Source of the DNA: a virus
IMG/VR virus record: IMGVR_UViG_3300035698_018551
Span: 1 to 41,591 of that record
Strand: one strand, 5' to 3'
Length of the DNA: 41,591 nt
Every line of letters begins with the position of its first letter. The first letter of the stretch is position 1. The notes beneath the pieces were generated by a model that ran no database searches, was not told where the DNA came from, and saw only the letters and a list, made by a program, of their open reading frames with translations. This document shows positions 28,423 to 39,648 of the stretch, one piece after another. The position numbers were made by a program, and so were the translations under genes.

Positions 28423-29607
28423 TTAGTCCTTGTAGGGATCGTATTCTCTAGCAGAAGCCATGCACACACCCATAGGTTTTAGCCTATGAAGGATCTTGAT
28501 CGTTTCCTTATGAGCTGCTAAGACTTCATCTATACGTTTATAAGCGAACGGAGATTCATCAAGGTCGCTGCCTCTTAGCTCAATGCCTGCTGAATCAATC
28601 CATTTATCATGAGCTGCTCTGCACACCATAGGCTGTTTTATCCGTATGCCCGTTTTTCGGTGTATTTTCCCTTTGGCTTGCGTTCTTCCCATGACTCGAC
28701 CTGCACCATGAATCGTAGAGTAAAGGGCTGACTTTGACTCTTGTGAATCTACGCCTTCAATTATGACTGACGGCTCTCCCATTGAGCTTCCAACAAAACC
28801 TTTTTGCCCTGGAAATGCTGGAGTCGCCCCTTTTCGTACGACCCAAAGATCTTTGTCGAAATGAGTTTCTTTCCATGCAAAATTATGATGATTATGTATT
28901 TCCTCAACAATTTCACCCTGGAGAATCTTAGCCACACGCTGACACACCCAGTCTCTACCTGCGTATGCGTACTGTCCTGCAATATCCATGCACTTGAGGT
29001 ACTGCTCTCCTAGATCTGAATTCTCATCGAGGATTACTGACTCTGCGTGCACTCCGTCTTTTCCCCCTGCTTGTTTTACGAAATGAGTGCATATACTATG
29101 ACCCAGGCCACGACTCCCAAAATGAACGCCAACCCAAACCCGATCAAGCTCATCTGTAAAGATATCCACGTAGTGGTTTCCCGAACCGACTGTTCCAAGC
29201 TGAGACGCCGCCTTGTCCTTGAGATTGCGTAAAACTTCGATGTCTGTCCATTTAGGGTCAGAAAATAGGTCGTGATCCACTTTCTCATTATTCGTTCTCC
29301 CAACTCCAAAGCTGATGTACTTTTGGACTTCATTCATGTTTCGATATATGTTTTTTCTCACTTCGTCAGCGTCCACGTCGAGCCTGACAGCCTTATTACC
29401 GCAAGCAATGTCAAAGCCCACCCCGTTGACGTTAATGGCTCCTTCATAGGCTACAACGCCTCCTACTGGCACTGAGTAACCTATATGATGGTCAGCCATC
29501 AATGCAGTGAATACAGGGGGTGTATCGTTTTTAGTTATGGCCAACATTTGAGCTACTGCCTCTGACATTGGCTCTCCCCACACTAGGATTCCTTCAACTA
29601 TTTTCAT
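28423..29607 (-). CDS. rtcB: RtcB-type RNA ligase
   Basis: 394 residues, a typical length. All RtcB hallmarks are seen: GVGFDIACG with metal-binding Cys69, GTVGSGNH (His145), GVHFGSRGLGH (His162), HNHHNFAWKE (His238-241), KGATPAFPGQKG, and STIHGAGRVMG with the guanylylated His300. The end is DESPFAYKRIDEVLAAH...LKPMG. RtcB uses GTP and manganese to join 3'-phosphate or 2',3'-cyclic phosphate ends to 5'-OH ends, the ends left by most tRNA-cutting toxins. GGAG precedes the ATG; it is translated 3 nt after the gene at 29611. Confidence 0.95.
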   Translation of the reverse strand: MKIVEGILVWGEPMSEAVAQMLAITKNDTPPVFTALMADHHIGYSVPVGGVVAYEGAINVNGVGFDIACGNKAVRLDVDADEVRKNIYRNMNEVQKYISFGVGRTNNEKVDHDLFSDPKWTDIEVLRNLKDKAASQLGTVGSGNHYVDIFTDELDRVWVGVHFGSRGLGHSICTHFVKQAGGKDGVHAESVILDENSDLGEQYLKCMDIAGQYAYAGRDWVCQRVAKILQGEIVEEIHNHHNFAWKETHFDKDLWVVRKGATPAFPGQKGFVGSSMGEPSVIIEGVDSQESKSALYSTIHGAGRVMGRTQAKGKIHRKTGIRIKQPMVCRAAHDKWIDSAGIELRGSDLDESPFAYKRIDEVLAAHKETIKILHRLKPMGVCMASAREYDPYKD

Positions 29608-29966: not shown

Positions 29967-30638
29967 CTACGTCCGTTCATAATTCCATATCTCCTGGCCT
30001 TCTTTAAAATACTTCCCGTCTTCTTTATGAGCATGAATGTATTTTGCGATAACCTTTAAATCACCTTTCAATTCTAATCTAAAAACAAGCCCCTCATTTT
30101 CGTAAGGACACTTATCGGACAATCTCTTGAGTAACGTTTGTAAGGAAAGGTTGCCACCTAGATGGATAAGTTTAGGTATTTCAAATCTATAAGGAAGAAC
30201 TTTATGAAGAAAGTCATGGTAACACACTCTATTTTGACCTTCGAAAAAATCAAAAGCAAAAAACATAGAAGGCAAGTTCTTGTAAATAGTGCCATGTGCC
30301 AGAGCGCACCACTCACCTACAATTCTATCCCCGTCGTTTCTTAATAGATGTTCAAAAGTAGCTATACTTTTCATTACCCATTTGTGAAACAGCAAATGTT
30401 GTTGTTGATTAGAATACTTTAAATCAAAACCACTTCTGCCAAGACATACAATTTCATTATTCCATCTGACAACACAGACATTAGAGCCGTCCATTTTCTC
30501 CTGCACAATGAGAAGGGACTGTTTCTCAGTAAAATCCTTGAAGATCTGTCCCTCACTCCTAAGGTCAATATGCCTATCTCCTTCTCCTAGACGTGACTTA
30601 GAAACGTGCCCTATCTTGTTATACGTCTTATAAGGCAA
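29967..30638 (-). CDS. RNA ligase, covalent nucleotidyltransferase family (KxDG type)
   Basis: 223 residues. Motif I is EKMDGSN (nucleotidylated Lys48). Motif III is IVGEWCALAHG (Glu109). Motif IIIa is FFAFDFFE, motif IV NEGLVFR (Glu182) and motif V VIAKYIH (Lys199). This is the complete catalytic set of the RNA ligase / Rnl2-like superfamily, which adenylylates itself and joins 3'-OH to 5'-phosphate ends. No separate RNA-binding domain is present. The best start is TTG at 30638 (AGGA about 12 nt upstream); a stop codon lies in frame just upstream, so no ATG is possible. Confidence 0.85.
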   Translation of the reverse strand: MPYKTYNKIGHVSKSRLGEGDRHIDLRSEGQIFKDFTEKQSLLIVQEKMDGSNVCVVRWNNEIVCLGRSGFDLKYSNQQQHLLFHKWVMKSIATFEHLLRNDGDRIVGEWCALAHGTIYKNLPSMFFAFDFFEGQNRVCYHDFLHKVLPYRFEIPKLIHLGGNLSLQTLLKRLSDKCPYENEGLVFRLELKGDLKVIAKYIHAHKEDGKYFKEGQEIWNYERT

Positions 30639-30900: not shown

Positions 30901-31539
30901 TTATTCCTCCTCATACCAATCAAACATGTCTCTTCTAAGTTTAGCCATAAGTGGCTTTGTTGGGTGGTAAAAAATAAGACCTTCAGCTTGTACCTTCTTC
31001 TTCCCTATTCTCTGCGTAAAAAGAGAAGGCAAGTCCTTGAACCATTCCCTCAATGAATCATAAGTTTTAGGATAGTCCCCACGAATGTAACTTTTCCAAT
31101 GACACTTAGATTTCAGATAGTCAAAAGGAACAAACAAAGGTTTTTCAACTCCATGAAGATTTTTATTCATAGTTGGTCCGATTAGCTCTCCGTAGACCTT
31201 CCCAGTGATATTGGAGAGGATATAGTCTTTCCCTATGGCGGATATGATGCCTTCCAGCATTCTAGCGTGTGGCGGATGCAAGTCAGTGGAAATAGATGGG
31301 TTTTTGAGAATGCGGTTCTCTCGATTGTCTACAGCTACTAATTCACCTTTAGTGAAGGTACAACATATGTTGGTGCCATGGAGCTTATCAACAGCTCTAA
31401 CGCCTTTTCCCTCGAATACCCAGTCGTATCCCTCGGCTATCTCAGGCGTTACGATATAACGACCATTTATGGTCTTTCTCACAAATGGACTCTTAATCTT
31501 AGGGAAGTCCTTTATCTCTAGGTGATCTTCGTTTGACAT
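30901..31539 (-). CDS. RNA ligase, Rnl2-like (KxHG type)
   Basis: 212 residues. Motif I is VDKLHGTN (Lys52; the KxHG form is typical of T4 Rnl2-like enzymes). Motif III is VYGELIGP (Glu118). Motif IIIa is FVPFD, motif IV AEGLIFYHP (Glu186) and motif V MAKLRRDMFDW (Lys200). It should seal nicks or ends in RNA with 3'-OH and 5'-phosphate. It is clearly a different lineage from the ligase at 29967, since the motifs and intervening segments differ. It starts at TAAATG behind the gene at 31540. Confidence 0.85.
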   Translation of the reverse strand: MSNEDHLEIKDFPKIKSPFVRKTINGRYIVTPEIAEGYDWVFEGKGVRAVDKLHGTNICCTFTKGELVAVDNRENRILKNPSISTDLHPPHARMLEGIISAIGKDYILSNITGKVYGELIGPTMNKNLHGVEKPLFVPFDYLKSKCHWKSYIRGDYPKTYDSLREWFKDLPSLFTQRIGKKKVQAEGLIFYHPTKPLMAKLRRDMFDWYEEE

Positions 31540-33026: not shown

Positions 33027-33673
33027 TATTTATTGTAGTATCTCCATTGACAATCTGTATTAATGTTAAAATCATCACATATGCTATGACTCCCAAACGC
33101 AGACCTTTGTATAAATTTTCCAGACATAAACGCTACATTTCCTTCAGTTCCTACTTGGATAAAAGCATGAGTGCACATCTTTTTTCTTAAAATAATTTTT
33201 CTATGAGAAAGAGGAAGTGCTTCTTTCAACTCATACCATTCAGTTGAATCACTTTTGGCAGAAAGTTGCTTCTTAATATCTCTTATGTCATCAACTAATG
33301 GTTGTAGTCTGTCCTCAATCTGGTCCTTAACTTCCCATTCTATATCTTCAGAAATTCTGCCTTGATCTATAATGTCTCTAAGATGTTGGATTTTATTGTA
33401 AGAACTACGTGGAGTAGAACCATATTCAGCGAAATAGTGTGCCCATAAGCCTTCAGAAAGTACAGCGTCACGTTCGTGTGCCTCTTTAAGTGATTCCCAA
33501 GCTTTTTCAGCCTCTAAAAGTGCATCTTCATGTGCTTGGTTAGCATCATGTTTAACTAAAGCTTGGTTAATCATTCTCAAACAGCTACTAACGCTTCCAT
33601 CACCGTATTGTCCTTCTAACATATCTAAATGAACTCTTATAAAATCAACTTCTTGTCTAGTAAATTCTATCAT
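33026..33673 (-). CDS. Hypothetical protein with helical centre and DUF551-like tail
   Basis: 215 residues. Residues about 45-135 are a long charged helical region (DALLEAEKAWESLKEAHERDA; VKDQIEDRLQPLVDDIRDIKKQL). The last 70 residues (EWYELKEALPLSHRKIILRKK ... WRYYNK) resemble the small W/P-rich domain of its DUF551-like neighbours. AAGGAG precedes the ATG at 33673, inside the preceding gene. Confidence 0.6.
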   Translation of the reverse strand: MIEFTRQEVDFIRVHLDMLEGQYGDGSVSSCLRMINQALVKHDANQAHEDALLEAEKAWESLKEAHERDAVLSEGLWAHYFAEYGSTPRSSYNKIQHLRDIIDQGRISEDIEWEVKDQIEDRLQPLVDDIRDIKKQLSAKSDSTEWYELKEALPLSHRKIILRKKMCTHAFIQVGTEGNVAFMSGKFIQRSAFGSHSICDDFNINTDCQWRYYNK

Positions 33674-33820: not shown

Positions 33821-33997
33821 TCATGTCATGTTTAAACAGGCTAAGAAAAATAAAATAGAACCCACAATGCTACAAAAAACAACCCCTGGAGTTGTAGTGT
33901 ATTTCATCTCCTTGTTTGGATAAGAAATGTAAACAACTGACAAAAATATCTTAAACCCGCAATAGATCCAAAAATACCAAAAACAATAACTGCTCAT
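33821..33997 (-). CDS. 58-residue membrane protein, first gene after the structured RNA
   Basis: The ATG at 33997 follows AAGGGAAGG by a few nt. Two hydrophobic segments are present (about 4-27, CFWYFWIYCGFKIFLSVVYI, and 39-56, VVFCSIVGSILFFLACL) with a short polar loop. It is the first gene of the long minus-strand accessory operon and lies 21 nt after the three-way-junction RNA at 34019-34133. Confidence 0.65.
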   Translation of the reverse strand: MSSYCFWYFWIYCGFKIFLSVVYISYPNKEMKYTTTPGVVFCSIVGSILFFLACLNMT

Positions 33998-34018: not shown

Positions 34019-34133
34019 GTGGGATGCATATACTCCAACAGCACGGGCAGTTCCAAGCTTAATGTCGCCAAGGCGCTGAATAGGAATATACAGACGTGCA
34101 CATCTGAATATTAACCACGTATACGCATCCCAC
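34019..34133 (-). ncRNA. Candidate structured leader RNA / riboswitch-like three-way junction upstream of the RNA-repair operon
   Basis: Read on the minus strand, a 15-bp stem P1 (34133-34119 with 34033-34019) closes two hairpins. P2 (34112-34101 with 34096-34085) has 12 positions around a TGCA loop. P3 (34078-34073 with 34044-34039) has 6 bp and a 28-nt inner part. Linkers are GUGGUU, CCUAUU and UUGGA. All non-Watson-Crick positions in P1, P2 and P3 except one U-U are G-U pairs on this strand; on the plus strand they would be A-C mismatches. That favours a minus-strand RNA. It ends about 8-10 nt before the ribosome-binding site of the operon's first gene. No known riboswitch or ribozyme core was recognised. 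Confidence 0.6.
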
Positions 34134-34184
34134 TTCTAGCAATATCATATAACTAAATTTAATAGGGAAATATTTTATGAGTTG
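34134..34184 (-). promoter_or_regulatory. Probable promoter region for the structured RNA and accessory operon
   Basis: On the minus strand a TATGAT box sits about 20 nt before P1, predicting a start near 34140. The -35 region is poor, so the promoter may need an activator. No other minus-strand promoter was found before the first gene. Confidence 0.35.
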
Positions 34185-34199: not shown

Positions 34200-34502
34200 A
34201 TGGAACCAAATCCAACATCAATAGTGACAGTAAAAGTTACGTCTTTTTCTTTCAACATGTGGCTTCATGTCAATAACAAAAGGCCATGGTGGAAAACTAG
34301 AAGAGCTGTAATGATGTTCGGAAAAGGTATGGAATATTTATTAGAAGACTTTTGTACAATGGAATATCTAGAAACACTTTTTGTCAGAATTGAAGGTCAC
34401 GAAGAAGTCTATCCTCTAAAAAATGCAGCACATGTTTTTTTTACGGAAAATGGAAAACAATTTACCATGCCACCAGATAGAGGTTTATGGTTTATGGTTT
34501 GA
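34200..34502 (+). CDS. Hypothetical protein, leaderless candidate
   Basis: 100 residues starting MEPNPTSIVTVKVTSFSFNM with no Shine-Dalgarno. It contains a tryptophan- and arginine-rich stretch (NNKRPWWKTRRAVMMFGKGM) and a beta-like end (VFFTENGKQFTMPPDRG). A short alternative frame begins at 34178 behind AGGGA but stops after 15 codons. Function is unknown. Confidence 0.6.
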   Translation: MEPNPTSIVTVKVTSFSFNMWLHVNNKRPWWKTRRAVMMFGKGMEYLLEDFCTMEYLETLFVRIEGHEEVYPLKNAAHVFFTENGKQFTMPPDRGLWFMV

Positions 34503-34509
34503 CTTGTCG

Positions 34510-34857
34510 TCATTCATCATCAGGCCAATCAACTTGCATCTCAAGGTTCTCGTCCCAATACACCTCGGCTCCTGTCTGCTCTTCAAAGTCTTCAATGCCT
34601 CGGCCATTGTCAGTATGATCGTCGTCCTCTAGCCCAAATAGAGCAGGAAACATGTTCATGCTAAATACTGTGACAATTAGAAAAACGGCCATTGCAAAAA
34701 ATGTATTTGTCACTATTCTATCCTTCTTTTTTAACGATTCTATGTATGCTTCTATGCTTGTATTTTCTGATACCCCATACGTCACTAAATAACGATCGTG
34801 CTCAGGCAACGGTGTACTCCTGCCAGCAATAGATGTCTTTGAAATTCTTGGCTTCAT
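34510..34857 (-). CDS. Single-span membrane protein with acidic tail
   Basis: 115 residues. The N-terminal 50 are cytoplasmic-looking (basic start, then EAYIESLKKKDR). One transmembrane helix follows at about 53-72 (FFAMAVFLIVTVFSMNMFPA), then a strongly acidic C-terminal 40 residues (EDDDHTDNGRG, DWPDDE). Convergent with the gene at 34200. Function is unknown. Confidence 0.6.
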   Translation of the reverse strand: MKPRISKTSIAGRSTPLPEHDRYLVTYGVSENTSIEAYIESLKKKDRIVTNTFFAMAVFLIVTVFSMNMFPALFGLEDDDHTDNGRGIEDFEEQTGAEVYWDENLEMQVDWPDDE

Positions 34858-35000
34858 GTCTACACATATATCACACGTGAAATCTACATGTAAAGAGATT
34901 CACTATGATAAAAATGGATAGAATTTTTTGGGGGTGTTAAAATTGGGCTCCGAGAAGGGTCAGTAATCGTGCCATTATGACAAACCGAGAACTGATAACC
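34858..35000. other. Non-coding region with a promoter-like element
   Basis: TGTAAAGAG at 34889-34897 is followed by TATGAT at 34904-34909 and an ATG at 34914 that opens only 8 codons. No gene is supported. It may be a decayed copy of the promoter unit seen at 28132-28180. Confidence 0.35.
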
Positions 35001-35072
35001 CTCCCGAAACATCTTAACCCATATAACTACTGGTATTTTTTGTAAAGAAATTTATTTTCTCTGAAATGGGCC
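35001..35072 (+). repeat. Diverged repeat unit A
   Basis: Begins CTCCCGAAACATC and contains TGTAAAGAAATTTATTTTCT. It aligns with unit B over about 70 bp, including LP(K/R)H-x-N-x-Y-x-x-W when translated, but has a 1-nt deletion and a stop, so it looks decayed. Confidence 0.5.
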
Positions 35073-35131
35073 GAGGAAATAGAATGACCATATGGGCGAC
35101 CATGTCTAAAAAAACACAACCTCATTACATA

Positions 35132-35218
35132 CTTCCCAGGCATCCTAATCTATATCTTTTATGGTCTTATTATGTAAAGAAGTTGCTTTTTCTTAAAGTG
35201 ACGTCCGCTTGGGGTTGA
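35132..35218 (+). repeat. Diverged repeat unit B
   Basis: Begins CTTCCCAGGCATCC and contains TGTAAAGAAGTTGCTTTTTC and CTTGGGGTTGACG. It covers the end of a 43-codon open frame (from an ATG at about 35082). Its end supplies the -35 box of the gene at 35251. Confidence 0.5.
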
Positions 35219-35243
35219 CGTTTCTCATAAGCAGTGATATCTT
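35215..35243 (+). promoter_or_regulatory. Promoter of the gene at 35251, leaderless spacing
   Basis: TTGACG (35215-35220), 17 bp, TATCTT (35238-35243) with a TGn extension. The ATG at 35251 lies 7 nt after the -10, at the expected transcription start. Confidence 0.6.
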
Positions 35244-35250
35244 TTAATGA

Positions 35251-35538
35251 ATGTTTAAAATACGACCAATCAACCTTCCTGATCTTGAAAATGGAAACGT
35301 AAGAATTTGGGTGAAATGTGCGGGATTCGGAAATCCTACAAATCCTGTCTACTCCGATATGAGCCAAATAAGCTACTCTAAAGAAAATCCAGTATTAAAA
35401 GAACTTGTGATGATGGTGCTGTTTACAACTAGAGTATTTGAAAAAAATGTTTTTAATGAAAATATTACTGTTGTTATTGAAGAAGAAAATAAAAATACAC
35501 AAATAGATATGGGACCATTGAAAAACTACTCTAAGTAA
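35251..35538 (+). CDS. Hypothetical protein, leaderless candidate
   Basis: 95 residues starting MFKIRPINLPDLENGNVRIWV with no Shine-Dalgarno. A beta-strand N-terminal half leads to a helical LVMMVLFTTRVFEKNVFN segment and an acidic EEENKNTQIDMG stretch. Repeats B and C bracket the gene. Function is unknown. Confidence 0.6.
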   Translation: MFKIRPINLPDLENGNVRIWVKCAGFGNPTNPVYSDMSQISYSKENPVLKELVMMVLFTTRVFEKNVFNENITVVIEEENKNTQIDMGPLKNYSK

Positions 35539-35585
35539 TGTATGAAAGTTTATTTTTCTGAAAATGATCCGTCCTTGGGGTTGGG
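35537..35585 (+). repeat. Diverged repeat unit C
   Basis: Contains TGTATGAAAGTTTATTTTTC and CCTTGGGGTTG, matching the second half of unit B with small indels. It overlaps the start of the 50-codon ORF at 35564, so B and C share both a leader and the opening codons of this ORF. Confidence 0.5.
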
Positions 35586-35716
35586 GTTCCCGCGAACAAT
35601 CACAAGTACCAGTACCAATTAAGGATCGCCCCTTTTTTCTTTTCAAATATCAATTACTAGTCTGGGACCCCTACTTTTTCGTCACCACATTCGATAATGC
35701 TCATTATAGAGTGTAA
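35564..35716 (+). CDS. Possible 50-residue protein
   Basis: Starts MIRPWGWGSREQSQVPVPIK, continues with RPFFLFKYQLLVWDPYFF and has a protein-like composition, but no ribosome-binding site. The repeat-B counterpart of its start is truncated by a stop after six codons. A CCCCTTTTTTC tract inside it could instead be the tail of a terminator for the gene at 35251. Confidence 0.35.
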   Translation: MIRPWGWGSREQSQVPVPIKDRPFFLFKYQLLVWDPYFFVTTFDNAHYRV

Positions 35717-35851
35717 AACATTCGTTGATCTTGCACACTTCCAAATGTATAGTCTTTATTTGAACGGAGGGGGAGACACGAGGGGTGACAGGTGGTGACA
35801 CAAACCCTCACATCCACTACACTGGACTAAACAACAACGGAGCATAAGATC
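35717..35851 (+). other. Spacer with short GGTGACA repeats
   Basis: Two GGTGACA units lie 10 bp apart near 35784-35802, followed by CCCTCACATCC. They could be a regulator or initiator binding site before the gene at 35852. No gene is seen. Confidence 0.3.
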
Positions 35852-35998
35852 ATGAGGTTATACATTGAAGGCATCATAGCTGGGTTACTATGGTGTGGAG
35901 GCGCATTTATGAACGGCATGCCATGGCCGTGGATAATACTTGGATGCACATTGTTAGGAGACGTAGTAATACTGCGGAACAGGCACATACCTAGGTGA
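35852..35998 (+). CDS. 48-residue membrane protein
   Basis: ATG at 35852 with GGAG about 10 nt upstream. Two hydrophobic stretches (YIEGIIAGLLWCGGAFM and WPWIILGCTLLGDVVIL) are joined by NGMP and end in a basic RNRHIPR tail. A holin-like or small regulatory membrane protein is possible. A perfect AGGTGA / TCACCT dyad overlaps the stop. Confidence 0.5.
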   Translation: MRLYIEGIIAGLLWCGGAFMNGMPWPWIILGCTLLGDVVILRNRHIPR

Positions 35999-36092
35999 CC
36001 TCACCTCTCATCAACAGTCCACCTCCATAATATATACCAGGGTACGTATTGCGCATTAATCGTTGATGATGTAGTACAATGACATGGTAGAC

Positions 36093-36290
36093 ATGAAGTA
36101 CATCCCTGAGAAGGACCTATGGATCAGCACGGGTCGTGGTGACAAGGTATACATCATCGGGGAACACTTCAAACACCTTCTGTCTTTATACCACGTGTCT
36201 ATGATCAGTAACGGAAATCACTGGCCGCTTGGTGTATTCACAACCTACGGGAAAGCCATTAAATGTATTGAGAATCTATTCCCTTCTTGA
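36093..36290 (+). CDS. Hypothetical 65-residue protein
   Basis: Two in-frame ATGs (36084 and 36093) are possible. The -10-like TACAAT at 36075-36080 favours 36093 (MKYIPEKDLWISTGRGDK). The sequence YIIGEHFKHLLSLYHVSMISNG and GVFTTYGKAIKCIENLF looks like a small alpha/beta fold. No Shine-Dalgarno is seen. Confidence 0.55.
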   Translation: MKYIPEKDLWISTGRGDKVYIIGEHFKHLLSLYHVSMISNGNHWPLGVFTTYGKAIKCIENLFPS

Positions 36291-36292
36291 CC

Positions 36293-36520
36293 CCTTATAT
36301 ATACAAGGCGAGCAGCTACCTCCAAGACTTACGCAACACGTCATCACACATTTTCAGGTGCAACTCTTCCCGATCTTGATCCCATTCAGTTCCTTTATAG
36401 AACTGTTCGTCTAGTTGTTGTTTCAGACGTTGTGACGCACAATCGCAATCCACAATATCGCAGACACATTTATTTTCATCCATGCTCTAACCGATACCAC
36501 AATGCTCCTTATATATACAA
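36293..36520 (-). repeat. 14-bp direct repeat bracketing a minus-strand gene
   Basis: CCTTATATATACAA occurs exactly at 36293-36306 and 36507-36520, just outside the ends of the gene at 36316-36483. On the minus strand the upstream copy reads as a TATA-rich promoter-like box, and the downstream copy forms a CCTT/AAGG dyad. Confidence 0.5.
36316..36483 (-). CDS. 55-residue cysteine-rich acidic protein
   Basis: ATG at 36483. Cysteines cluster in the first 15 residues (NKCVCDIVDCDC), followed by a charged helix (LKQQLDEQFYKGTEWDQDREE). This may be a metal-binding head with a helical tail. Its codons are consistent with a real gene although longer frames on both strands overlap it. It is the only minus-strand gene in the plus-strand cluster and sits between 14-bp repeats. 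Confidence 0.5.
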   Translation of the reverse strand: MDENKCVCDIVDCDCASQRLKQQLDEQFYKGTEWDQDREELHLKMCDDVLRKSWR

Positions 36521-36535
36521 CGGCTGAGATACCCC

Positions 36536-36564
36536 TTGACACCAAACACCTTTTATTATATAAT
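36536..36564 (+). promoter_or_regulatory. Perfect consensus sigma70 promoter
   Basis: TTGACA (36536-36541), 17 bp, TATAAT (36559-36564): both boxes match consensus fully at the optimal distance. Drives the operon 36596-37402. Such strength suggests immediate-early expression or a repressed promoter. Confidence 0.85.
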
Positions 36565-36595
36565 ATGAGTATAACAAACGCACCAGGAGGATAAG

Positions 36596-36832
36596 ATGAA
36601 CAATGTTTTAGCAGAAAGAGTACACAAAGCCAGACGATACAGAGTATTTTTCGATGAGGACGGGTATAACTTGATGACACCGATACAGCGTGATGTTTTG
36701 TCATGTTTCTATATCACAGAGAGCATAAAGTGTGAGGGTTGTGGCCAATGGGAAGAGACAGATGCACTAGGAGACATTCAATTAACAGATCCAGAAGTCG
36801 CCCTACGTTATTTCATAAACACAAAAGATTAG
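36596..36832 (+). CDS. Hypothetical protein with CxxC motif
   Basis: 78 residues, first gene after the consensus promoter, with AGGAGG 6 nt before the ATG. Basic N-terminus (AERVHKARRYRVFFDED), then ESIKCEGCGQWEETDALGD with a CxxC pair and an acidic end. Possibly a small regulator; function is unknown. Confidence 0.7.
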   Translation: MNNVLAERVHKARRYRVFFDEDGYNLMTPIQRDVLSCFYITESIKCEGCGQWEETDALGDIQLTDPEVALRYFINTKD

Positions 36833-36857
36833 AACAAACGCACAGAGGAGAGGTAAG

Positions 36858-37160
36858 ATGAAGATAGTAACTAAACACATGATGAAGACAACACCATCAC
36901 TTGGATCAACTGAAAATGTATCGATGAGCGAGAAGATACTACACACGAAGTTATTCACCCCGTGGGGAAATTGGACATGGTACATATGCGAGGCCAACTT
37001 TGAAACTGGCGAGTGTTTTGGATTAGTAGAAGGTTTTGAAAAAGAGTGGGGATACTTCAATCTCTTCGAACTTCAACAGATCAGAGGACCAATGGGACTT
37101 AAAGTAGAGCGAGAGAGAGCATTTCAGCCACGAAAATACGGACAAGGAGAGGCAACATAA
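36858..37160 (+). CDS. DUF2958 domain protein
   Basis: 100 residues. LFTPWGNWTWYICEANFETGECFGLVEGFEKEWGYFNLFELQQIRGPMGLKVERE (about 32-86) is a clear DUF2958 signature: KLFTP, WTWY, FGLV-GFE-E-GYF-L-EL, RGP-GL-VER. The family is common on plasmids and phages and has no established function. GGAGAGG precedes the ATG; its stop overlaps the next start (TAATG). Confidence 0.85.
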   Translation: MKIVTKHMMKTTPSLGSTENVSMSEKILHTKLFTPWGNWTWYICEANFETGECFGLVEGFEKEWGYFNLFELQQIRGPMGLKVERERAFQPRKYGQGEAT

Positions 37161-37402
37161 TGGATGACATAGAAATGATGATTGGTGAGATGAGTGACGA
37201 AACAAATGTTAAGATAAACACATTTCTTAAAATGGTAGGAAAGTGGGGCATTGACCACAAAGTAACACCCCGCGAAGTATTCCAGACGGTGACTGTATTT
37301 TTCCACTATTGTATTTCGAAAAAGGTATTGACTAAAGAGCACATCCTTGCTGCATTAGAATTATCTGACAAGGTTAGGTTTGAGCCAGAAGATTGTACTT
37401 AA
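37160..37402 (+). CDS. Hypothetical helical protein
   Basis: 80 residues, translationally coupled to the DUF2958 gene. All-helical pattern (NVKINTFLKMVGKWGID, PREVFQTVTVFFHYCISKK, EHILAALELSDKV) resembling a small dimeric regulator or accessory subunit. Function is unknown. Confidence 0.65.
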   Translation: MDDIEMMIGEMSDETNVKINTFLKMVGKWGIDHKVTPREVFQTVTVFFHYCISKKVLTKEHILAALELSDKVRFEPEDCT

Positions 37403-37442
37403 CCTAGTTGCGCTAAATGCTTATGTTGTATATTGGTAGTGA

Positions 37443-37859
37443 ATGAGCGATAAATTCTACAGTCTTTTATTCAACAAGATTATTAGATGTCCTGACCTCA
37501 AGAGTGGACAGCTAAAATTCAATCGTTTTTCAGCACTATCAACACTAGGAGAAGAAAATATGTTTAACCCACCCCTTAACTGCACACCAGGCCGACACGA
37601 CAAGCGTTGTCCGTACAGTAGACGTGTTAGGAGTAACCCACTCGAAGATGAGGATGGTTGGGTTGATGTTGAGAAAGCTATTCCATCTTGTGAATGGGAA
37701 GGCGAGATCATGTTAGGAGACGGCACTATTGTAGCTGCAAAAAAGCCTAAGGATAGTGGGAGTTGGAAGACCTGGCAATTTAGCAAAAGTAGACCCATGA
37801 ATGAATCATCATATTTAAAACTTTATGACGACAACGTACAAAGCTGGAGAAACTTCTAA
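37443..37859 (+). CDS. Hypothetical protein with DUF551-like C-terminal half
   Basis: 138 residues from the ATG at 37443; an internal ATG at 37561 has a better ribosome-binding site (AGGAG) and would give 99 residues. The C-terminal part GWVDVEKAIPSCEWEGEIMLGDGTIVAA resembles the W-x-x-V-x-x-x-x-P domain of the DUF551-like proteins at 32-33 kb. A cysteine pair (CTPGRHDKRC) lies before it. TTGCGC-17-TATTGG upstream gives 6-nt spacing to the first ATG. Confidence 0.6.
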   Translation: MSDKFYSLLFNKIIRCPDLKSGQLKFNRFSALSTLGEENMFNPPLNCTPGRHDKRCPYSRRVRSNPLEDEDGWVDVEKAIPSCEWEGEIMLGDGTIVAAKKPKDSGSWKTWQFSKSRPMNESSYLKLYDDNVQSWRNF

Positions 37860-37963
37860 TGCACACAATCACCCCTGAGAAAGCTTTGGAGTTTTTGGTG
37901 CCACAGATTGAGCTTACGGCATTCCTGACTGTTCTCAATTACCGAATCGGTAGCAACTGGTAG
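37859..37963 (+). CDS. 34-residue coupled peptide
   Basis: The ATG overlaps the stop of the preceding gene (TAATG), with GGAG 8-9 nt upstream. Product begins MHTITPEKALEFLVPQIEL and looks helical. Its 3' end runs into the operator-like repeats before the XRE gene. Confidence 0.45.
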   Translation: MHTITPEKALEFLVPQIELTAFLTVLNYRIGSNW

Positions 37964-37977
37964 CACATCGGTAGTTG
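37940..37977. promoter_or_regulatory. Candidate operator array before the XRE regulator
   Basis: Three GGTAG units at 37949, 37959 and 37970 are spaced one helical turn apart. The first lies in a perfect TACCGA-A-TCGGTA dyad (37940-37952), and CAACT (37954-37958) mirrors AGTTG (37973-37977). The array overlaps the -35 box of the XRE gene promoter, so binding would block transcription; autoregulation is likely. Confidence 0.55.
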
Positions 37978-38003
37978 ATAATAAAACTCCATTTCGTTAA
38001 AAT
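37975..38003 (+). promoter_or_regulatory. Promoter of the XRE regulator, leaderless
   Basis: TTGATA (37975-37980), 17 bp, TAAAAT (37998-38003). The ATG at 38010 is 6 nt further, so transcription should start at the initiation codon, as for lambda cI from PRM. Confidence 0.65.
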
Positions 38004-38009
38004 ATTCTG

Positions 38010-38207
38010 ATGAGAACATTAGGACAGAGGTTAAAGGCTGCAAGGGAGGCTAGAGGCATTACACAGCAAAAGTTAGCTGAGTTAGCATTTCAGGGCATCA
38101 ATTCAATTTCCAACTACGAGAGAGGCAAGGTAACACCTACCATATACAATCTAGGTAAGTTAGCGAAGATTTTAAATGTAAACTACGGAGAGTTATTAGA
38201 TGAGTGA
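38010..38207 (+). CDS. XRE/Cro-type helix-turn-helix regulator
   Basis: 65 residues, a stand-alone HTH domain: LGQRLKAAREARGITQQKLAE, then ISNYERGKVTPTIYNLGKLAKIL. It has no C-terminal peptidase, so it is Cro-like or an antitoxin-like repressor rather than a full CI. It has no Shine-Dalgarno and a leaderless promoter. The operator-like array lies immediately upstream. Overlaps the following gene by 8 nt. Confidence 0.9.
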   Translation: MRTLGQRLKAAREARGITQQKLAELAFQGINSISNYERGKVTPTIYNLGKLAKILNVNYGELLDE

Positions 38208-38361
38208 CAAGACATACGATATAAAAGAAATAGTGTTGAAAGAAATGGAACTTAAGTTAGACAAAATCCTGGCAGATGTTATGACTATTTCCGTTGATAT
38301 TGCCACACTCAAGATAGAGCTACGAGTATCAACTGGTTGTTATGGGAGTACAGATGAGTAA
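38200..38361 (+). CDS. 53-residue coiled-coil protein coupled to the XRE regulator
   Basis: ATG at 38200 inside the end of the XRE gene. A single long amphipathic helix (YDIKEIVLKEMELKLDKILAD) with heptad spacing. Could be an oligomerising partner or anti-repressor of the upstream regulator. Its 3' end carries CAACTGG, and a CAGTTG-AAC-CAACTG dyad follows at 38365-38379. Confidence 0.55.
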   Translation: MSDKTYDIKEIVLKEMELKLDKILADVMTISVDIATLKIELRVSTGCYGSTDE

Positions 38362-38998: not shown

Positions 38999-39478
38999 TT
39001 ATGAGAGTTTTGGATTGTCAGGAACAAGAGTATCATCCTGATTTACTGGGGATTTGGTTTTATTAAACACAAATTCAATAGCAGCGCGAGCGATATCCTG
39101 AGCTACAGAGGAGTTATCATTTTGAGAGTAGCCGCGATCTTTCATACGAGTTTTAGCGAGGAAGATTTGCAGGGTGGTATCTTGCCCTTTAATGGCTCTA
39201 CTCCACATGTTATCCTCTAAATAATCTTTAGCACGTTCACGAGCATCTTCTAGTCGTTGTGCTAGGTCTGCATCGTTTTTGATACGTCTATGAATAGCAT
39301 AGCGAGTACATCCTAAAGTAGCAGCAATATGAGAGACGGTGCCATGAGTTTTTTCGATAAGGTCTACAATACTTTCACGCGGAATAGGGACACCTGGGTG
39401 AGGATTTGTAGCAATTTCACCCGTTTGAAGTAATAATTTCTTAGTATTTTTCTTAGTAGTTGTAGTAGATTTTTTCAA
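38999..39478 (-). CDS. Terminase small subunit-like DNA-binding protein
   Basis: 159 residues. IEKTHGTVSHIAATLGCTRYAIHRRI (about 41-67) is a helix-turn-helix. EDARERAKDYLEDNMWSRAIKGQDTTLQIFLAKTRMKDRGYS (about 77-118) is the characteristic continuation of TerS-like phage proteins. TerS recognises the packaging site and loads TerL. Here it is 12 kb from terL, unusual but workable. TTG at 39478 is the start; the gene has a promoter at 39595-39567 and an 80-nt structured leader. Confidence 0.7.
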   Translation of the reverse strand: MKKSTTTTKKNTKKLLLQTGEIATNPHPGVPIPRESIVDLIEKTHGTVSHIAATLGCTRYAIHRRIKNDADLAQRLEDARERAKDYLEDNMWSRAIKGQDTTLQIFLAKTRMKDRGYSQNDNSSVAQDIARAAIEFVFNKTKSPVNQDDTLVPDNPKLS

Positions 39479-39566
39479 TAGAAATTGTCCGCTCTAAGCC
39501 ACGGATCTTGGCTGTTGTTATGCGTGGGGAAAAGGGGACCTTCCCCCTCAGCAATTATAACATCAA
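39479..39566 (-). other. Structured leader of the TerS-like gene
   Basis: On the minus strand the leader can form GGGGAA / TTCCCC (39546-39541 with 39531-39526) and AGCCA / TGGCT around a 7-nt loop, just before the GAGCGGAC ribosome-binding site. No T-tract follows, so these are not terminators. They may control translation or form a packaging-site structure. Confidence 0.4.
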
Positions 39567-39648
39567 TCTATAGAGGGGCTAAAAAACCTTGTCAAGACAT
39601 TTCTTTAATTTATTTTATTTTGACACAAAAGATCTAATCTGTTAAGAT
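39567..39648. promoter_or_regulatory. Divergent promoters, TerS-like gene and recombinase operon
   Basis: Minus strand: TTGACA (39595-39590), 17 bp, TATAGA (39572-39567). Plus strand: TTGACA (39620-39625), 17 bp, TAAGAT (39643-39648), start near 39655. Both -35 boxes are consensus and lie 24 bp apart, so a single bound regulator could affect both directions. Confidence 0.7.

Follow-up and report, generated by a model that had tools for sequence, protein, structure and literature searches.

A stable noncoding structure directly in front of an RNA-ligase operon in a phage genome, with its signal in the closing stem

What is the function of a strongly folded noncoding segment that lies directly in front of a phage operon carrying RNA ligase genes? 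The window analyzed here, i.e. a whole virus record of 41,591 nt, has a direct repeat of 127 bp at either end and is therefore probably a complete phage genome of ~41.46 kb. Searches with PHROGs identified terminase, portal and major head protein. Tightly packed leftward (minus strand) genes form an operon that runs from 33997 via two RNA-ligase-family proteins to RtcB (Table 1), and PHROGs, Pfam and the ORF calls agree with a first-pass annotation that had described this operon as carrying RtcB and two further RNA ligases. A search for relatives of the protein encoded by the first operon gene found none. The folded segment is flanked by divergent ORFs, one running rightward from 34200 and the operon running leftward from 33997. 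The rightward block 34200-38361 (+), which includes a DUF2958 protein at 36858-37160, splits a small terminase-like gene (38999-39478) from the remaining leftward operon, an arrangement in which most relatives differ.

The first-pass annotation had placed a 115-nt RNA element at 34019-34133 (-), closed by one stem and carrying two internal hairpins. These coordinates are correct, and as far as pairing is concerned all three helices are present as drawn: P1 with 15 bp including one G-U, P2 with 11 pairs plus a U-U, and P3 with 6 bp. The linkers drawn between them as unpaired are only partly so, as UCC of one linker pairs with GGA next to P1 in the minimum free energy (MFE) fold, which reaches -45.8 kcal/mol compared with -43.0 kcal/mol for the version drawn originally. 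The argument that G-U pairs reveal the RNA strand holds in that all four of them are on the minus strand, but the bias is weak, with just 3-4 informative positions, and the plus strand is stable too (z -2.95 to -3.1). An ORF scan detected no frame of at least 40 aa across the element; a 29-codon open frame (MILLEVGCVYVV..) crosses it without a Shine-Dalgarno sequence (SD).

Table 1. Coordinates of the element, the operon and recurring features of related phages.
Feature	Position	Strand	Basis
P1 5' arm, GTGGGATGCGTATAC	34119..34133	-	pair probabilities 0.96-1.0
P2 hairpin, also a near-perfect DNA palindrome, AATATTCAGATGTGCACGTCTGTATATT	34085..34112	-	p 0.01 alone
P3 hairpin, CAGCGC..GTGCTG, inner GGCG/UGCC	34039..34078	-	predicted; p 0.26 against shuffles
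P1 3' arm, GTATATGCATCCCAC, 14/15 inverted repeat of the 5' arm	34019..34033	-	sequence
SD, AAGGGAAGG, 10 nt after P1	34000..34008	-	sequence
Possible anti-SD/anti-start segment, CTCATAA + TTCCCT	34164..34181	-	predicted pairing
First operon gene, 58-aa membrane-like protein	33821..33997	-	ORF
RNA ligase family protein, KLHGTN motif	30901..31539	-	relatives at 46-58%
Second RNA ligase, PF09414, KMDGS motif	29967..30638	-	domain match
RtcB RNA ligase	28423..29607	-	PF01139, E 3e-68
Conserved noncoding element in relatives	L096:2411-2545, L097:1360-1496, L118:3823-3962, L098:2930-3070, L103:2626-2770, ~15 more
Recurrent long hairpin in relatives	L118:6173-6254, L135:11457-11537, L060:10715-10796 (-), L062:1771-1847; weaker in L013, L101

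The stability of the element was compared with that of shuffled sequences. The minus strand of 34019-34133 yielded a z of -4.28, and a repeat with 1000 shuffles gave z -4.61 (p 0.001); the minus strand folded better than the plus strand, and among all 115-nt windows on both strands of the genome the element ranked first in GC-corrected stability. No stem of this kind elsewhere in the genome is stronger than P1, and stems of its strength are expected 0.027 times per shuffled genome strand, i.e. ~0.05 times per genome when both strands are counted. Once P1 was removed, the 85-nt interior was at the level of its shuffles (z -0.53, p 0.26), as was P3 alone (p 0.26), so that stability beyond that of shuffles was not found in the helices throughout the element; within the interior it was limited to P2 (p 0.01). 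Since the interior including P3 folds no better than shuffles, the proposal that the element is a compact three-way junction acting as a unit is not established. The signal above chance is narrower than had been claimed and consists of the closing stem P1 and the palindromic hairpin P2. We rejected a longer inverted repeat reaching past P1, as its alignment was non-significant and was matched by 70 of 500 shuffles, and transposon-like ends, as the flanks show no target duplication.

Comparison with known RNAs assigned the element to no Rfam family. Searches of Rfam 15 at gathering and relaxed thresholds (E up to 10 in one run) returned nothing over the element, and a tRNA search found none there. 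An intrinsic terminator was rejected, as the GC stem lacks a T run and P1 is followed by CATTTAAATT. Phi29-type packaging RNA (pRNA) is similar in size (~115-120 nt) and in its closing helix with two hairpins; however, the element has no Rfam match to it, lies at another genomic position, in a phage that encodes terminase subunits, and lacks a complementary pair of P2 and P3 loops, UGCA and ACAUUAAGCUUGGAAC being complementary over a few bases at most by inspection. Y RNAs can occur in bacterial rtcBA operons (PMC7790460), and the element resembles those of rsr-yrl-rtcBA operons in being a noncoding structure beside an RtcB operon, but differs from them in that it has no Rfam match and no tRNA-like module was found in it. 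No Rsr/Ro60 (TROVE) domain was matched among the proteins scanned, a set that covered part of the small ORFs of the genome. The closest likeness in layout is to bacterial and phage mRNAs with a structured 5' leader, in which a stable stem-loop lies directly before an SD for which alternative pairing is possible; unlike these, the element is without homologues and is known from its sequence.

Homologues were sought among relatives of the phage and in large collections. RtcB, terminase and one ligase used as baits retrieved ~130 related phage loci, most at 55-73% protein identity, while proteins 33026 and 34510 and ligase 29967 retrieved no close relatives, and the small proteins adjoining the element were absent from the related loci except that the 55-aa gene at 33657 was weakly matched. 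A single-sequence covariance model run over 154 sources (2.1 Mb of related loci) matched the element itself alone. Pattern scans gave zero matches for the P1 arms in viral and genome collections and for the P3 loop in the viral collection, so that the patterns used found no homologue in 2.9 million viral contigs; blastn against phage and plasmid records and nhmmer found none either. Ranking of stable noncoding structures in the relatives gave an estimate of about one comparable site per genome equivalent, some of them likewise consisting of a closing stem and two hairpins. None of these has sequence in common with the element. Analogues such as L062:1806-1977, L103:2829-2939 and L100:7150-7270 resemble it and were considered as a shared structured leader, which we rejected, as they too lack any sequence in common with it and as the relatives showed no enrichment of structure at the leader position, with z below -2 in 4/19 loci vs 3/19 controls. 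The further claim that RNA selection had shaped a three-way junction is thus not supported, because the interior is at chance level, no homologue provides covariation, relatives with RtcB operons have neither the element nor an excess of leader structure, and P2 may equally be a DNA palindrome or an RNA hairpin.

What does hold is that a stable, noncoding, Rfam-negative structure lies directly before the ribosome-binding site (RBS) of the gene at the head of the ligase operon, ending 10 nt before the SD as had been noted. Our preferred reading, put forward tentatively, is that the element serves the leftward operon as a structured 5' leader or an intergenic control segment specific to this phage; a DNA-level regulatory site ranks behind it and chance third. 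Most likely it is no new RNA class but a control region of an ordinary sort, particular to this phage, because the parts above chance are the outer stem and a small palindrome only and no relative shares it. We infer that in a leftward transcript the P1 arms would close over the interior, with P2 and a weakly defined P3, leaving the spacer and the SD accessible beyond the stem; the stem may stabilize the mRNA at its 5' end and hold the SD open. In the predicted fold of a transcript that begins just before P1 the SD was mostly unpaired (pairing 0.08-0.21). If transcription started farther upstream, the CTCATAA/TTCCCT segment could pair with the SD and the AUG across the stem, closing both: the two motifs are complementary to TTATGAG and AGGGAA, found where the 33997 gene starts, and in transcripts starting above 34181 the predicted pairing probability was near 1 over AGGGAA and UUAUGAG. 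Counted in favor of a structured leader are the rank and z of the fold, the rare P1, the noncoding site before the SD, the tight operon, the SD that is open unless the upstream flank is included and then becomes paired, the better fold of the minus strand and the lack of a terminator. Counted against it are the interior and P3 at chance level, the absence of a homologue and of leader enrichment in relatives, the lack of a convincing promoter immediately upstream, and anti-RBS pairing that varies with the bounds: of three sets of bounds, one gave z -3.05 when the flank was shuffled and the others -1.5 and -1.3. Because z depends on the bounds chosen, a switch by upstream pairing with the SD and AUG is suggestive only.

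The same segment could act as DNA, its inverted repeats, chiefly the 28-bp palindrome P2, being protein-binding dyads in a divergent promoter region and the RNA fold a by-product. We consider this unlikely, although it is the strongest competitor. The palindrome of P2 continues across its loop (TGCA), a symmetry not required of an RNA hairpin, and by its sequence P2 would suit a DNA-binding dyad or a loop-loop contact no less than a hairpin; it is bracketed by a weak promoter match, TTAATA-18-TATATT at 34114-34085 (-); both strands fold, and divergent ORFs lie on either side. However, the genome has no second copy of a P1 arm or of the P2 palindrome at operator-like identity, promoter matches occur here at chance frequency, and ORF 34200 lacks an SD and may not be a real gene. 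Slightly less probable still is that a functionless 15-bp inverted repeat, arisen by chance or left as a relic in AT-rich, fast-evolving intergenic phage DNA, was singled out because it is the best of its genome. The interior at chance level, the lack of homologues, the occurrence of comparable, mostly unshared structures about once per genome in relatives and the above expectation for P1 are in line with this, whereas the top rank of the fold argues against it, as does the finding of P1 and P2 together in one short noncoding gap that immediately precedes an RBS. Processing of the leader into a small RNA that acts in trans, or into a substrate or decoy of the RNA ligases, is improbable: the compact, closed form of the structure, the three RNA ligase genes next to it and the Y RNAs possible in rtcBA operons would suit it, but no Rfam match at E up to 10, no tRNA, no conservation and, among the proteins scanned, no Rsr/Ro60 domain was found. 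A ligand-binding riboswitch of a new class, compatible with the site before the RBS and the multibranched predicted fold, is marginally less probable still, given that no conserved residues are demonstrable, the junction is not above chance and the viral contigs yielded no homologue with the patterns used.

Other noncoding features were observed in the genome and its relatives. A family-wide conserved element is present at 35596-35670 (-), 1.5 kb upstream of the structured leader candidate on the same strand, where it was matched at E 4.9e-6 by a model built without this genome; in relatives it lies just downstream of the small terminase-like gene and has the core CCTTAAnTAGTACCGGTACTATG..TATATATATCCCA. 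It showed no consensus RNA structure and no match in known phages, and for the former reason looks like a DNA site, possibly one for packaging or replication. Being conserved, unlike the leader fold, it is possibly the more interesting of the two. Upstream of the small terminase-like gene, 39478-39600 (-) carries promoter-like TTGACA and TATAAT that recur in relatives, spaced ~28-30 nt apart instead of 17 and followed in the relatives by CTTGA and a GC hairpin. Another stable noncoding hairpin region, 34905-35025 (-), ranks within the top dozen when the windows of the genome are ordered by GC-corrected stability. A related RtcB operon is headed by a strongly folded (z -2.5), largely noncoding region of ~500 nt (L062:1678-2175 (+)) directly after a canonical promoter, TTGACA-17-TATAAA, for which no Rfam match and no full-length homologue were found. 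A long hairpin, GAAGAAGAAG..TATATA..CTTCTTCTTC flanked by CCACAC/GTGTGG, recurs at varying positions in related phages and was not found in the 41,591-nt genome.

As the evidence stands, the structured leader candidate is one sequence-unique structure and mainly a calibration case, in which a striking fold without homologues has its signal in the closing stem. There is a small chance that the stem brings the anti-SD/anti-start strand from upstream into contact with the RBS that serves the RNA-repair operon. Transcripts from an upstream start would then be silent and those starting at the element translated, and ligase expression would depend on which promoter is used or on whether RNA-cutting defenses cleave the leader. 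If so, the phage would respond to the cutting of its own leader by switching on RNA repair, which would provide a testable link between RNA-cutting defenses of the host and the ligases of the phage.
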